Positions 16,323 to 20,011 of a stretch of DNA of 64,000 nt are shown in pieces. The translations under genes and the position numbers were made by a program. The stretch covers positions 1 through 64,000 of the forward strand of contig CASFJU010000004.1 in the NCBI GenBank assembly GCA_949295115.1. Direction: 5' to 3'. This stretch comes from an uncultured Phascolarctobacterium sp. (GTDB lineage: Bacteria; Bacillota; Negativicutes; Acidaminococcales; Acidaminococcaceae). The first letter of the stretch is position 1. Every line of letters begins with the position of its first letter. A model generated the notes under the pieces. That model ran no database searches. It was not told the DNA's origin and saw only the letters and a program-made list of their open reading frames with translations.

Positions 16323-16350
16323 TTGACAAGCGGCGCAAAACTGCTATAAT
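16323..16350 (+). promoter_or_regulatory. Promoter of the serine operon
   Basis: A perfect TTGACA (16323-16328) and a perfect TATAAT (16345-16350), 16 bp apart, precede the T-box leader. Confidence 0.85.
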
Positions 16351-16356
16351 TACCCT

Positions 16357-16688
16357 ATAAATCAATACAGCCAACACGATGATGGAGAAGCTCTGCGCTA
16401 AACTTGCAGAAAGCCGCCGGTTGATGCGAGGCGGCAGTAAGGCGTAAGTAAGTTCCGCTCCGGAGATGCGAATGACGAATTCGACGGGTACCGCCCGATA
16501 CAGCGTACTAAAGATGGCCGTATGGCAATTTGGGTGGCAACGCGGGTAACTCTCGTCCCATGTGGGATTGAGGGTTTTATTTTTTATCCGCGCAAGCACA
16601 AAGCCGCGGCTGAATTTGGGTGGCACCACGAGATAGAGAAGCTCGTCCCAAGGACGGCTTCTCTATTTTTATTGCAGGAGGTAACAAC
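16357..16688 (+). promoter_or_regulatory. Serine T-box leader with two antiterminator/terminator modules
   Basis: The leader has the usual T-box opening (CGATGATGGAGAAGC) and a distal Stem I loop with GGTTGATGCGAGGC. Candidate serine specifier codons TCC lie at 16454 and 16459. A first T-box core TGGGTGGCAACGCGGG (16531-16546) with CTCGTCCC is followed by a terminator at about 16550-16586. A second core TGGGTGGCACCACG (from 16617) with CTCGTCCC is followed by a very strong terminator (ATAGAGAAGC with GCTTCTCTAT, 16633-16670). Both bulges are TGGC, matching the GCCA end of a tRNA with discriminator G such as tRNA-Ser. Only 57 bp separate the modules, so there is one Stem I for two switches. 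It controls serC. Confidence 0.88.
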
Positions 16689-17762
16689 ATGGAAAGAGTT
16701 TATAATTTTAACGCAGGCCCTTCCGCCATGCCGCTGGAGGTTTTGCAGGAGGCGCAGGCCGAATTTTTAAACTACAAGGGCACTGGCATGGGCATTATTG
16801 AAATGAGCCACCGCAGCCCGGAATACGCCGCCATGCACGCGGAAACCAAAGCGCTTTTGCGCGAGCTGATGAACGTACCTGACGATTACGAAATTTTATT
16901 TATTCAGGGCGGCGGCAGCCTGCAGTTTTTGATGACGGCAGCCAACTTCCACACCAACAAGCGCACAGCTTACGCCAACACCGGCGTATGGGCAAAAAAG
17001 GCGATGGCTGAAGCCAAACGCTTCGGCGAAGTTTACGAAGCAGCATCAAGCGCCGATAAAAACCACAGCTACATCCCCGCCGCGCTTGATATCAAGCCGG
17101 ACACATCTTACCTGCACATCACCGCCAACAACACCATTTACGGCACGGAATGGCAGGACTTCCCCGATGTAGATGTGCCCGTCATCTGCGACATGTCGAG
17201 CGACATTCTTTCCCGCCCGGTGGATGTTACAAAGTTCAACCTTATCTACGCAGGTGCGCAAAAAAATTTAGGACCGGCAGGCGTAGTTATTGTAATAGTT
17301 AAAAAGAACTTTTTAGCAACAGCGCGCAAGGATTTACCGCCGATGCTGAGCTACCAAAACTACGCCGATAACGATTCGCTGTATAACACGCCGCCGGTAT
17401 TTGCCATTTACATGGTCAACAAAACGCTGCACTGGATTAAGGCGCAGGGCGGCATTACCGCTATTGAAGCGCGCAATAAGGAAAAGGCGCAGCTTATTTA
17501 CGATGTTATCGACAACAGCAACGGTTTTTACTGCGGCCACGCGGATAAAGCAAGCCGCAGCCGCATGAACATTACGTTTAATCTGCCCTCGGCGGAAATG
17601 GAAAAGGATTTTATTGCCGAAGGCAAAAAGCGCGGTTTTATCGGCATCGGCGGGCACAGGCTGGTTGGCGGCTGCCGCGTATCAGCCTACAACGCCGTAA
17701 CGGTGGAAGCCTGCAAAGCACTTGCTGATTTTATGAAAGAATACCAAAACCAACACGCATAA
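16689..17762 (+). CDS. serC: Phosphoserine aminotransferase
   Basis: A 357-residue PLP enzyme that transfers an amino group from glutamate to 3-phosphohydroxypyruvate. It opens with [16 protein letters not shown], has QGGGSLQF, and carries the PLP lysine in [13 protein letters not shown]. Late motifs [10 protein letters not shown] and [16 protein letters not shown] fit the family. The ATG at 16689 has a GCAGGAGG site upstream; an in-frame extension to 16620 would run through the T-box terminator and is not real. It is the first gene of the serine operon, 15 bp before serA, and is under T-box control. Confidence 0.96.
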
Positions 17763-17777
17763 ACGGAGGAATGAAAA

Positions 17778-19370
17778 ATGACGATGAGAATTCTTGTAAG
17801 CGACGATGTTAGCGAAAAAGGCGTGGCGCTGCTGCGCGAACATTTTGACGTTGACGTTAAAACCAACCTGCCGACGGAAGAACTTTTGAAAATTATCGGC
17901 GAATACGACGGGCTTGTAACCCGCAGCCAGACGCAGGTGACAAAGGACGTTATTGACGCCGCCAAAAACTTAAAGGTTATCGGCCGCGCGGGTGTAGGCG
18001 TTGACAATATCGACATCCCCGCTGCGACGGCACGCGGCATTGTTGTGCTGAACGCACCGGAGGGCAACACCATTGCCGCCACCGAACACACCATTGCCAT
18101 GATGATGGCGATGACGCGCCACATCCCGCAGGCGCACGCTTCCATTCAGGCAGGCAAATGGGACAGAAAAAGTTTTGACGGCATTCAGGTGCAGGGCAAA
18201 ACGCTGGGCATTATCGGCGTAGGCCGCATTGGCAGCCGCGTAGCCCTGCGCATGCAGGCGATGGAAATGACCACCATCGGCTACGACCCCTACATTACCG
18301 AAGAACGCGCGCATCAGGTAGGCGTGGAACTGGTATCGTTTGACGAACTTTTGGCAAAATCCGACTACATCACCATCCACACCCCGCTGACGAAGGAAAC
18401 GCACAACATCATCGACGCCGCTGCCATCGCCAAAATGAAGGACGGCGTGCGCATTGTCAACTGTGCCCGCGGCGGCTGCGTAGATACCCAGGCGCTTGCC
18501 GATGCCTTAAAGAGCGGTAAGGTCGCAGGCGCTGCCATCGACGTGTACCCCGAAGAACCGCTGACGCCGGACAACAACCCCTTCATCGGCATGCCGCAGG
18601 TTGTGCAGACCCCGCACCTTGGCGCAAGCACCATTGAAGCGCAAATCGGCGTCGCCGTGGACGTTGCTTACGGCGTTATCGACGCGCTTGAAGGCAAACC
18701 GGTTATGACCGCCGTCAACATGGCGCCCATCCCCAAAAGCGTTGCCAGCGTTATCGCACCGTACTTTAAACTGGCGGAACGCATGGGCACCATCGGCATT
18801 TATCTGGCCGAAGGGCCGATTAAGGCTGTGGAAATTGAATACACCGGCGAGCTGGCACAGACGGAAACGCAGGCGCTGACCACCGCCTTTTTGAAAGGGC
18901 TTTTAAACCCGATTCTGCAGGACAGCGTCAACTTTGTCAACGCGCCGGGCATTGCCAAAAAACGCCATTTGCAGGTGCGCGATATAAAATCTCACCGCAC
19001 GGGCTATTTTTCTACCGCAATTAATGTTAAAATAGAGACAGATAAGGGTGAGCATACGCTGACCGGCACATTGTTTGACGGCAAGGAAGCCAAAATCGTG
19101 CAGATTGACCGCTTCCGCCTCGACTTCAAGCCTGAAGGCTATCTGCTGCTTGCCCCGCACATTGATAAGCCTAACATGATCGGGCAGATTGCCACCGTGC
19201 TCGGCAGCGCAGGCATTAACATCAACGGCATGCAGGTGGGCAGCACCGCCATCGAAGGCACCAACTTAATGGCCATCGCCACCGGCGGCGACATTCCCAA
19301 CGACATCATGCTCAAGCTGCGCGGCATCGAAGGCATTATCGATGTAAAACTGATTAACTGTGAGGGATAA
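17778..19370 (+). CDS. serA: D-3-phosphoglycerate dehydrogenase
   Basis: A 530-residue NAD-dependent dehydrogenase, the first step of serine synthesis. The catalytic domains carry the Rossmann motif [13 protein letters not shown], Arg in NCARGGCVD, Glu in YPEEPLT and His in TPHLGAST. An intervening ASB-type domain follows, and the last 80 residues form an ACT domain ([23 protein letters not shown]), the usual place for serine feedback binding. Length is that of the long (type I) form. It lies 15 bp after serC and 2 bp before the phosphatase gene. Confidence 0.97.
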
Positions 19371-19372
19371 AT

Positions 19373-20011
19373 ATGGTACGCATTATTTTAATCCGCCACG
19401 GCGAAACCAACTGGAACATACAGGGTCGCTATCAGGGTCAGGAGGACACCCGCCTGAGCGAACGCGGCTTTGCGCAGGCAGGCATGCTGGCGCAGGGGCT
19501 GAAGGATGTGCACATTGACGCTGCTTTTTCCAGTCCGCTTAAACGCTCGCTGTTAACGTGCAGGGCTTGCGCCGATTTACACAAACTGCCGGTGCGCACC
19601 GATGAGCGCCTGACCGAAATTAACCACGGCGCTTGGGAAGGCGAACTGGCCTGCGACATTGAAGCGCGCTACCCCGAAGAATTTAAGCAGTGGCACACGC
19701 AGCCGCAGCTGGTGCAAATGCCCGGCGGCGAAAACTTGGAGGACGTGCGTAAACGCGCCCGCGCCGCTTTCGACGAATTTGCACAAAAATACGACGGCAA
19801 AACGCTGCTTGTTTCCGCGCACGACGCTGTTAACAAAGCCATCATCTGCGACGTGCTGGGGCTGGATATGAGCCACTTCTGGAACATCAAGCAGGACAAC
19901 GCCTGCATTAACGTGCTGGAATGCAACGAAGGCGTATGGCGTGCCGTGCTTTTAAACAGCACCACCCACCTCGGCTATCTGTTCAGCGGCATCGAACAGG
20001 CAGGTCTGTAA
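19373..20011 (+). CDS. Histidine phosphatase family protein, candidate phosphoserine phosphatase
   Basis: A 212-residue enzyme of the phosphoglycerate mutase-like superfamily. The phospho-acceptor His is in LIRHGETNWN, the partner residues in SSPLKRSLLTC and EINHGAWEG, and the second catalytic His in VSAHDAVNKA. Family members include cofactor-dependent mutases, broad phosphatases and metal-independent phosphoserine phosphatases. It starts 2 bp after serA and ends the operon with a terminator. No HAD-type serB is in this window. The context makes phosphoserine phosphatase the best guess, which would complete the serine pathway in three adjacent genes; alpha-ribazole phosphatase is an alternative. 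Confidence 0.85.
   Translation: MVRIILIRHGETNWNIQGRYQGQEDTRLSERGFAQAGMLAQGLKDVHIDAAFSSPLKRSLLTCRACADLHKLPVRTDERLTEINHGAWEGELACDIEARYPEEFKQWHTQPQLVQMPGGENLEDVRKRARAAFDEFAQKYDGKTLLVSAHDAVNKAIICDVLGLDMSHFWNIKQDNACINVLECNEGVWRAVLLNSTTHLGYLFSGIEQAGL

Follow-up and report, generated by a model that had tools for sequence, protein, structure and literature searches.

A serC-serA leader of Phascolarctobacterium with one T-box sensor, two switch modules and a predicted second 3' strand for Stem III

Fully tandem T-boxes are documented (PMC12452182, PMC9413887), with examples in the trp, ilv/leu and thrS operons of Bacillota (PMC12452182), and a 2020 review also names partially tandem T-boxes, giving their modes of action as unknown (PMC7583486). 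The serC leader of Phascolarctobacterium appears to be a partially tandem T-box, with extra T-box parts behind one sensor; the passage of that review consulted gives no anatomy for this group, and here the repeated unit is defined and evidence is given for a shared Stem III 5' strand. Like the fully tandem T-boxes, the serC leader has two serial terminators and the same tRNA, but the former possess two complete and independent sensors (PMC12452182), whereas the serC leader has a single one and lacks a Stem I for each switch. The serA serine T-box of Paenibacillus polymyxa (PMC8002221) resembles it in its serine Stem I specifier, T-box bulge, antiterminator/terminator pair and serine-biosynthesis target; however, it carries AGC and UGGU (PMC8002221), in contrast to the UCC, the UGGC and the second module without a Stem I of the Phascolarctobacterium leader. 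The pseudo-cooperative tandem riboswitches, such as those for TPP and glycine, likewise decide on termination twice in succession for a single ligand, with a steeper response expected (PMC9481103), but these have one aptamer per expression platform where the serC leader has a single Stem I, and the passages of that survey consulted contained no case of several repeated platforms behind one aptamer. The c-di-GMP riboswitch Bc1 has, like the serC leader, one aptamer followed by two terminators, but its second terminator is reported to be ligand-insensitive (PMC11218506), whereas module 2 of the serC leader carries its own ligand-reading bulge.

The window, i.e. the whole 64-kb stretch of Phascolarctobacterium DNA that was analysed, contains the serC-serA leader with its T-box at positions 16357-16688. 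The organism, a gut bacterium, belongs to Phascolarctobacterium (Negativicutes) as judged from its nearest named relatives. The start of the leader RNA (about 16357) was placed from a consensus promoter, and the leader is followed by two genes of serine biosynthesis:

16323..16350, plus strand: sigma-70 promoter TTGACA-16-TATAAT (-35 at 16323-16328, -10 at 16345-16350; 12/12 consensus matches)
16676..16681, plus strand: Shine-Dalgarno AGGAGG of serC, from the sequence
16689..17762, plus strand: serC, phosphoserine transaminase (TIGR01364, 479.7 bits, over the cut-off)
17778..19370, plus strand: serA, phosphoglycerate dehydrogenase (TIGR01327, 660.7 bits, over the cut-off)

Among the 11 T-boxes of the genome, the one in this leader is the only doubled one. 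A histidine-phosphatase-like gene (19373-20011) lies immediately 3' of serA and, judging from its position and sequence only, its product could be a metal-independent phosphoserine phosphatase that finishes the serine pathway.

The leader contains a single sensor. The covariance model RF00230 matched positions 16370-16563 over its whole length (model 1-219) with 80.1 bits and an E value of 9.5e-18, below the Rfam gathering score of 93, and a search at the gathering threshold returned no match. The parts of the sensor are the following:

16370..16466, plus strand: Stem I, the sole one in the leader (RF00230 alignment; AGA and UUCC invariant across 30 aligned leaders)
16454..16456, plus strand: specifier UCC (Ser), reader tRNA-Ser(GGA) (UUCC invariant in 30 double leaders)
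16467..16505, plus strand: Stem II hairpin (CGAAU gacga AUUCG) and Stem IIA/B region (RF00230 alignment)
16512..16528, plus strand: Stem III with 5' purine motif (AGAUG-GCC GUAU GGC-AA) (RF00230 alignment)

Stem III fits the RRRxG-Stem III-AA motif of T-boxes as given in PMC7583486, and the changes in Stem II stay complementary among relatives in the alignment, read by eye. A specifier UCG/UUC at 16479-16484 was considered and dropped, since the alignment showed a covarying Stem II hairpin at that place and the invariant UCC at 16454-16456. The genome, whose tRNA genes were called by RF00005 and ARAGORN, encodes tRNA-Ser with GGA, TGA, CGA and GCT anticodons, and the gene of tRNA-Ser(GGA) ends in ...CTCTCTCCGCCA, i.e. 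GCCA, which complements the UGGC of both cores. The specifier thus fits the pathway, with UCC in the leader, a tRNA-Ser(GGA) gene in the genome and serC-serA downstream. A reading made earlier from the DNA letters alone (hereafter the sequence-only reading) had proposed a serine-specific leader with one sensing region and with TGGC in both cores matching the 3' end of tRNA-Ser, and these three points are borne out by the data above and by the finding of one Stem I and one RF00230 match.

Behind this sensor lie two cores, GGGTGGCAACGCGGGTAACTCTCGTCCC at 16532-16559 and GGGTGGCACCACGAGATAGAGAAGCTCGTCCC at 16618-16649, 86 nt apart. The core pattern occurs twice in the 64 kb, and was absent from 100 shuffles. 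Each core belongs to a module in which antiterminator and terminator are mutually exclusive and a U-run follows the terminator:

16531..16560, plus strand: antiterminator 1, with A1 UGGG/CCCA, bulge UGGCAAC (16535-16541) and A2 GCGGG/CUCGU
16548..16585, plus strand: terminator 1 hairpin, U-run 16575-16585 (-15.1 kcal/mol, z -2.6)
16616..16651, plus strand: antiterminator 2, with A1 UUGGG/CCCAA, bulge UGGCACC (16621-16627) and A2 ACGAG/CUCGU
16630..16673, plus strand: terminator 2 hairpin, U-run 16666-16673 (-25.5 kcal/mol, z -6.5)

Pattern search and folding therefore recovered both of the complete switch modules that the sequence-only reading had placed 86 nt apart, and the two U-runs lie near the RNA ends that it had predicted (about 16586 and 16670). 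Terminator 1 was present in 30/30 double leaders. The switch modules outnumber the sensors, with two cores and one Stem I; a second Stem I is absent, as only 58 nt separate the cores, and no second RF00230 match was found in the leader. The gap had rightly been called too short for another Stem I, its length having been put at 57 instead of the measured 58 nt. Because the RF00230 alignment stops at core 1, core 1 represents the usual antiterminator of a T-box, to which core 2 has been added; the model thus does not place core 1 inside Stem II/III as a spurious match, an outcome that had been contemplated in advance.

The sequence-only reading had also regarded a duplication of the switch part alone as rare, and this is wrong for the lineage in view of the counts in the family and the class. 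By protein homology serC was found in 55/59 genomes of the family, and the serC leaders were collected from these homologues, the core pattern not being used; 20 of the 30 closest leaders had a T-box, which was double in 15 and single in 5. When Negativicutes were searched with a pattern of two cores 60-100 nt apart, it was found in 114/380 genomes and in 52/102 genera, a few of the matches being repeats unrelated to T-boxes, whereas the same pattern in a phylum-wide draw was found in 23/398 genomes, most of those matches not being T-boxes. The T-boxes among two-core loci outside Negativicutes number about ten. Within the class, matches upstream of serC or serA carry UCC and those upstream of trpD carry UGG; further matches precede genes for DAHP synthase (aroF), prephenate dehydratase (pheA), a sodium symporter and TrpX-like binding proteins, with a specifier that is mostly UUC by eye.

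In the class-wide set the search pattern demanded the motif, and the conservation of the core is there by construction. In every family serC leader with a T-box, core 2 was either whole or absent, and the UGGN bulge and antiterminator 2 were intact in every double leader of the pattern-free set. There is hardly any variation in UGGN and the entire 5' half of core 2. Across families, core 2 is conserved and the spacer is not, and two-sided base changes preserve the terminator stems of both modules among relatives. Among the single leaders, L020 and L028 retain a switch of the module-1 type. The sole switch of L032, compared with its congener L031, is identical at 64/68 positions to module 2 and at 48/70 to module 1, and Stem I-III is conserved between the two (154/170). 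L032 has apparently arisen by a deletion between the repeated cores that would have joined Stem III directly to module 2, and the occurrence of the module-2 type alone in L032 and of the module-1 type in L020 and L028 suggests that both modules may work as building blocks.

A separate Stem III hairpin within the spacer before core 2 was not supported (mean z of 0.01 over 30 loci), and the lack of such a hairpin led to the idea of a shared Stem III. The segment immediately ahead of core 2 instead shows complementarity to the leader's one Stem III 5' strand, which lies upstream of core 1:

16515..16521, plus strand: common Stem III 5' strand plus two loop nucleotides, UGGCCGU, predicted to pair with module 1 or 2
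16606..16612, plus strand: alternative Stem III 3' strand GCGGCUG, 5 nt upstream of T-box 2 (predicted from complementarity)

The pairs of Stem III 5' strand and alternative 3' strand in other leaders include GCCGUAC/GUACGGC (L159), GCUAC/GUAGC (L022), GAUUUAUCCUG/CAGGAUAAAUC (L146), GGUUGUAAAACGAA/UUUGUUUUACAACC (L139) and AGGCCCACCG/CGGUGGGCCU (L134), to be set beside UGGCCGU/GCGGCUG in the window. Minimum-energy folding alone misplaced Stem III in many loci, and run-based, positional and partition-function tests were used instead. The pairing of the segment with the Stem III 5' region of its own leader was 16.1, as against 12.2 +/- 0.38 with that of other leaders, in 47 non-redundant loci (0/20000 permutations), and 17.2 against 13.6 +/- 0.63 in 21 held-out loci fetched afterwards (0/20000), values to be read with the qualification that the shuffles and permutations leave some relatedness among loci. 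The mean pairing along the 200-nt leader peaks at Stem III with a z of about 14, and the pairing segment lies 5 nt from T-box 2 in 25/47 loci. Part of this complementarity could be inherited from a duplicated Stem III 3' strand; nevertheless, at least 2 nt of the Stem III loop are paired in 57% of the loci, whereas shuffling the rest of the segment gives an expectation of 22%, and this reach into the loop is not explained by a mere copy of the 3' strand. In partition functions, 27/30 serine leaders reached an expected number of 4 or more alternative Stem III pairs, against 8.7 for shuffled segments. A permutation of serine leaders alone has little power, since there is almost no variation in their Stem III 5' strand; its support was modest with the test limited to Stem III (161/20000) and disappeared otherwise (9653/20000). 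In L016, L019, L156, L158 and L182 the pairing was weak or lay elsewhere in one test or another.

In the window itself, with terminator 1 and antiterminator 2 held, the six inner alternative pairs (16516-16521 with 16606-16611) had probabilities of 0.79-0.998, the outermost alternative pair one of 0.15 and the first Stem III one of 0.002. With the named helices only, the alternative Stem III gave -27.3 kcal/mol and the first Stem III -26.1 kcal/mol, a gain of 1.2 kcal/mol for a stem that contains three G-U pairs and closes a loop of about 84 nt. The computations thus show the anatomy of the leader, that this anatomy is conserved, and that the second Stem III strand is complementary to the 5' strand. 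We conclude that antiterminator and terminator are repeated together with a Stem III 3' strand as one unit, the sensor and the Stem III 5' strand being common to the modules. The proposal of the sequence-only reading that one tRNA could act on either module gains in this second 3' strand before core 2 a predicted structural basis.

We therefore favor, with a probability of roughly 0.6, the view that the leader is a partially tandem transcriptional serine T-box in which one tethered tRNA serves both switches serially via strand exchange in Stem III. Under serine starvation, uncharged tRNA-Ser would bind Stem I, Stem III would form with its first 3' strand, and the GCCA end of the tRNA would stabilise antiterminator 1, so that RNA polymerase would read past terminator 1. 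Once transcribed, the second Stem III 3' strand would pair with the same 5' strand, using the Stem III loop as a toehold, and this exchange would loop out module 1, whose terminator might then fold without harm, and rebuild the acceptor-end sensing domain around T-box 2. The same tethered tRNA would then hold antiterminator 2 and allow transcription beyond terminator 2 into serC-serA. With charged tRNA, any polymerase leaking past terminator 1 would encounter the stronger terminator 2, so that a tighter off state and a steeper response would be expected. We infer that one tRNA is used and not two, that it is handed over between the modules, and that the response would be tighter or steeper. 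Such a hand-over would explain how partially tandem T-boxes could work. Since the repeated unit is defined and common in one class, and since the interaction of 16515-16521 with 16606-16612 (and its equivalents elsewhere) is specific and can be mutated, the question of their mode of action becomes directly testable. In a more general form, for which we see about even odds, Stem III would be an exchangeable clamp whose 5' strand is common to two or three modules, each with its own 3' strand and a loop toehold, passing one tethered tRNA between terminator checkpoints in the partially tandem T-boxes of Negativicutes and some other Bacillota. We claim no priority for the bare architecture of one sensor and two switches; what is new here is the Stem III 3' strand that each extra module brings, and none of the literature searched contained the shared-Stem III model, older comparative T-box work lying outside that search. 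If the hand-over is true, one RNA-bound ligand would be checked twice by the same sensor in a manner resembling proof-reading, and to our knowledge no such double check by one sensor has been described for riboswitches.

The near invariance of UGGN and of the whole 5' half of core 2 indicates that an NCCA end is probably read there, which would also suit two tRNAs acting in series, the first remaining fixed to Stem I and antiterminator 1 while another, uncharged tRNA-Ser occupies antiterminator 2 through its acceptor end only, with a steep response. In agreement with such an arrangement, PMC7583486 describes a bound tRNA as no longer exchangeable after completion of the complex; however, the same review reports that an antiterminator without Stem III does not bind tRNA appreciably, the second tRNA would have to do without any Stem I, and the strand of module 2 complementary to the upstream Stem III would be left unexplained, so that we consider two tRNAs unlikely. 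The greater strength of terminator 2 in the window (-25.5 against -15.1 kcal/mol) could instead mean that module 2 is a passive safety terminator, the tRNA being sensed by module 1 only, with leak reduced in exchange for a constant loss of maximal expression; in a similar way, the second terminator of the riboswitch Bc1 hides the response of its first one (PMC11218506). We give this possibility a low probability, because a passive terminator could do without a T-box, and yet all pattern-free double leaders have an intact UGGN bulge and antiterminator 2, and L032 has a module-2 type as its sole switch.

The 5' half of core 1 (UGGG, GCGGG) can, by its sequence, pair with CUCGUCCCA of core 2, and the tRNA might stay in the bulge of core 1 while this half re-pairs with CUCGUCCC of core 2, the hybrid blocking terminator 2; such an exchange of antiterminator strands would have no need for the 5' half of core 2, its bulge or the second Stem III strand, all of which are conserved, and its chances appear slim. 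That core 2 is a non-functional relic of a duplication might be argued from the 5/20 family leaders that are single, which indicate that one module can be lost, but core 2 is conserved across families where the spacer is not, it is always whole or absent, and its terminator pairing has been kept through two-sided changes, all of which makes a relic highly improbable. Strand exchange in Stem III around one tethered tRNA remains the preferred reading.

Several further observations were made on individual leaders. The base of A2 in core 2 (16628-16632 with 16642-16646) is A-U in this genus, and core 1 retains G-U; PMC7583486 describes a G-U wobble at this base as the element that senses the amino acid sterically. 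At the T-box base that pairs with the discriminator, core 2 has U (UGGU) in L018, L021, L022, L025, L027, L029, L154, L158-L161 and L182, core 1 having mostly C; with G in the tRNA at that place the pair would be G-U, and the second switch might be weaker. Triple cores behind one Stem I were seen in L166 (G064:C132:30900-31038), G065:C1:56406-56544 and G066:C1:1736883-1737021; the triple T-box of L166 lies upstream of a DAHP synthase gene, and its cores 2 and 3 each follow a strand (AGCC and AGCAGCC, respectively) complementary to GGCUGUU of Stem III. The two-core T-boxes of the phylum-wide draw outside Negativicutes (L132, L144, L133, L134, L136-L139, L145 and L146) precede, by eye, oligopeptide-binding, anthranilate-synthase-like, DAHP synthase, aminotransferase-like and symporter-like genes, and alternative Stem III pairings reach their greatest length, 10-14 bp, in several of the loci from this draw, L134, L139 and L146 among them. 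Finally, in L180, L092, L113, L177, L184 and others, which are leaders of symporter, pheA and amino-acid ABC genes, terminator 1 pairs the T-box strand, GGGUGGUACC with GGUACCACCC, and spares the 3' half of the antiterminator, with the result that the two structures are rivals for the 5' strand, and the usual terminator is found in module 2 of these leaders.
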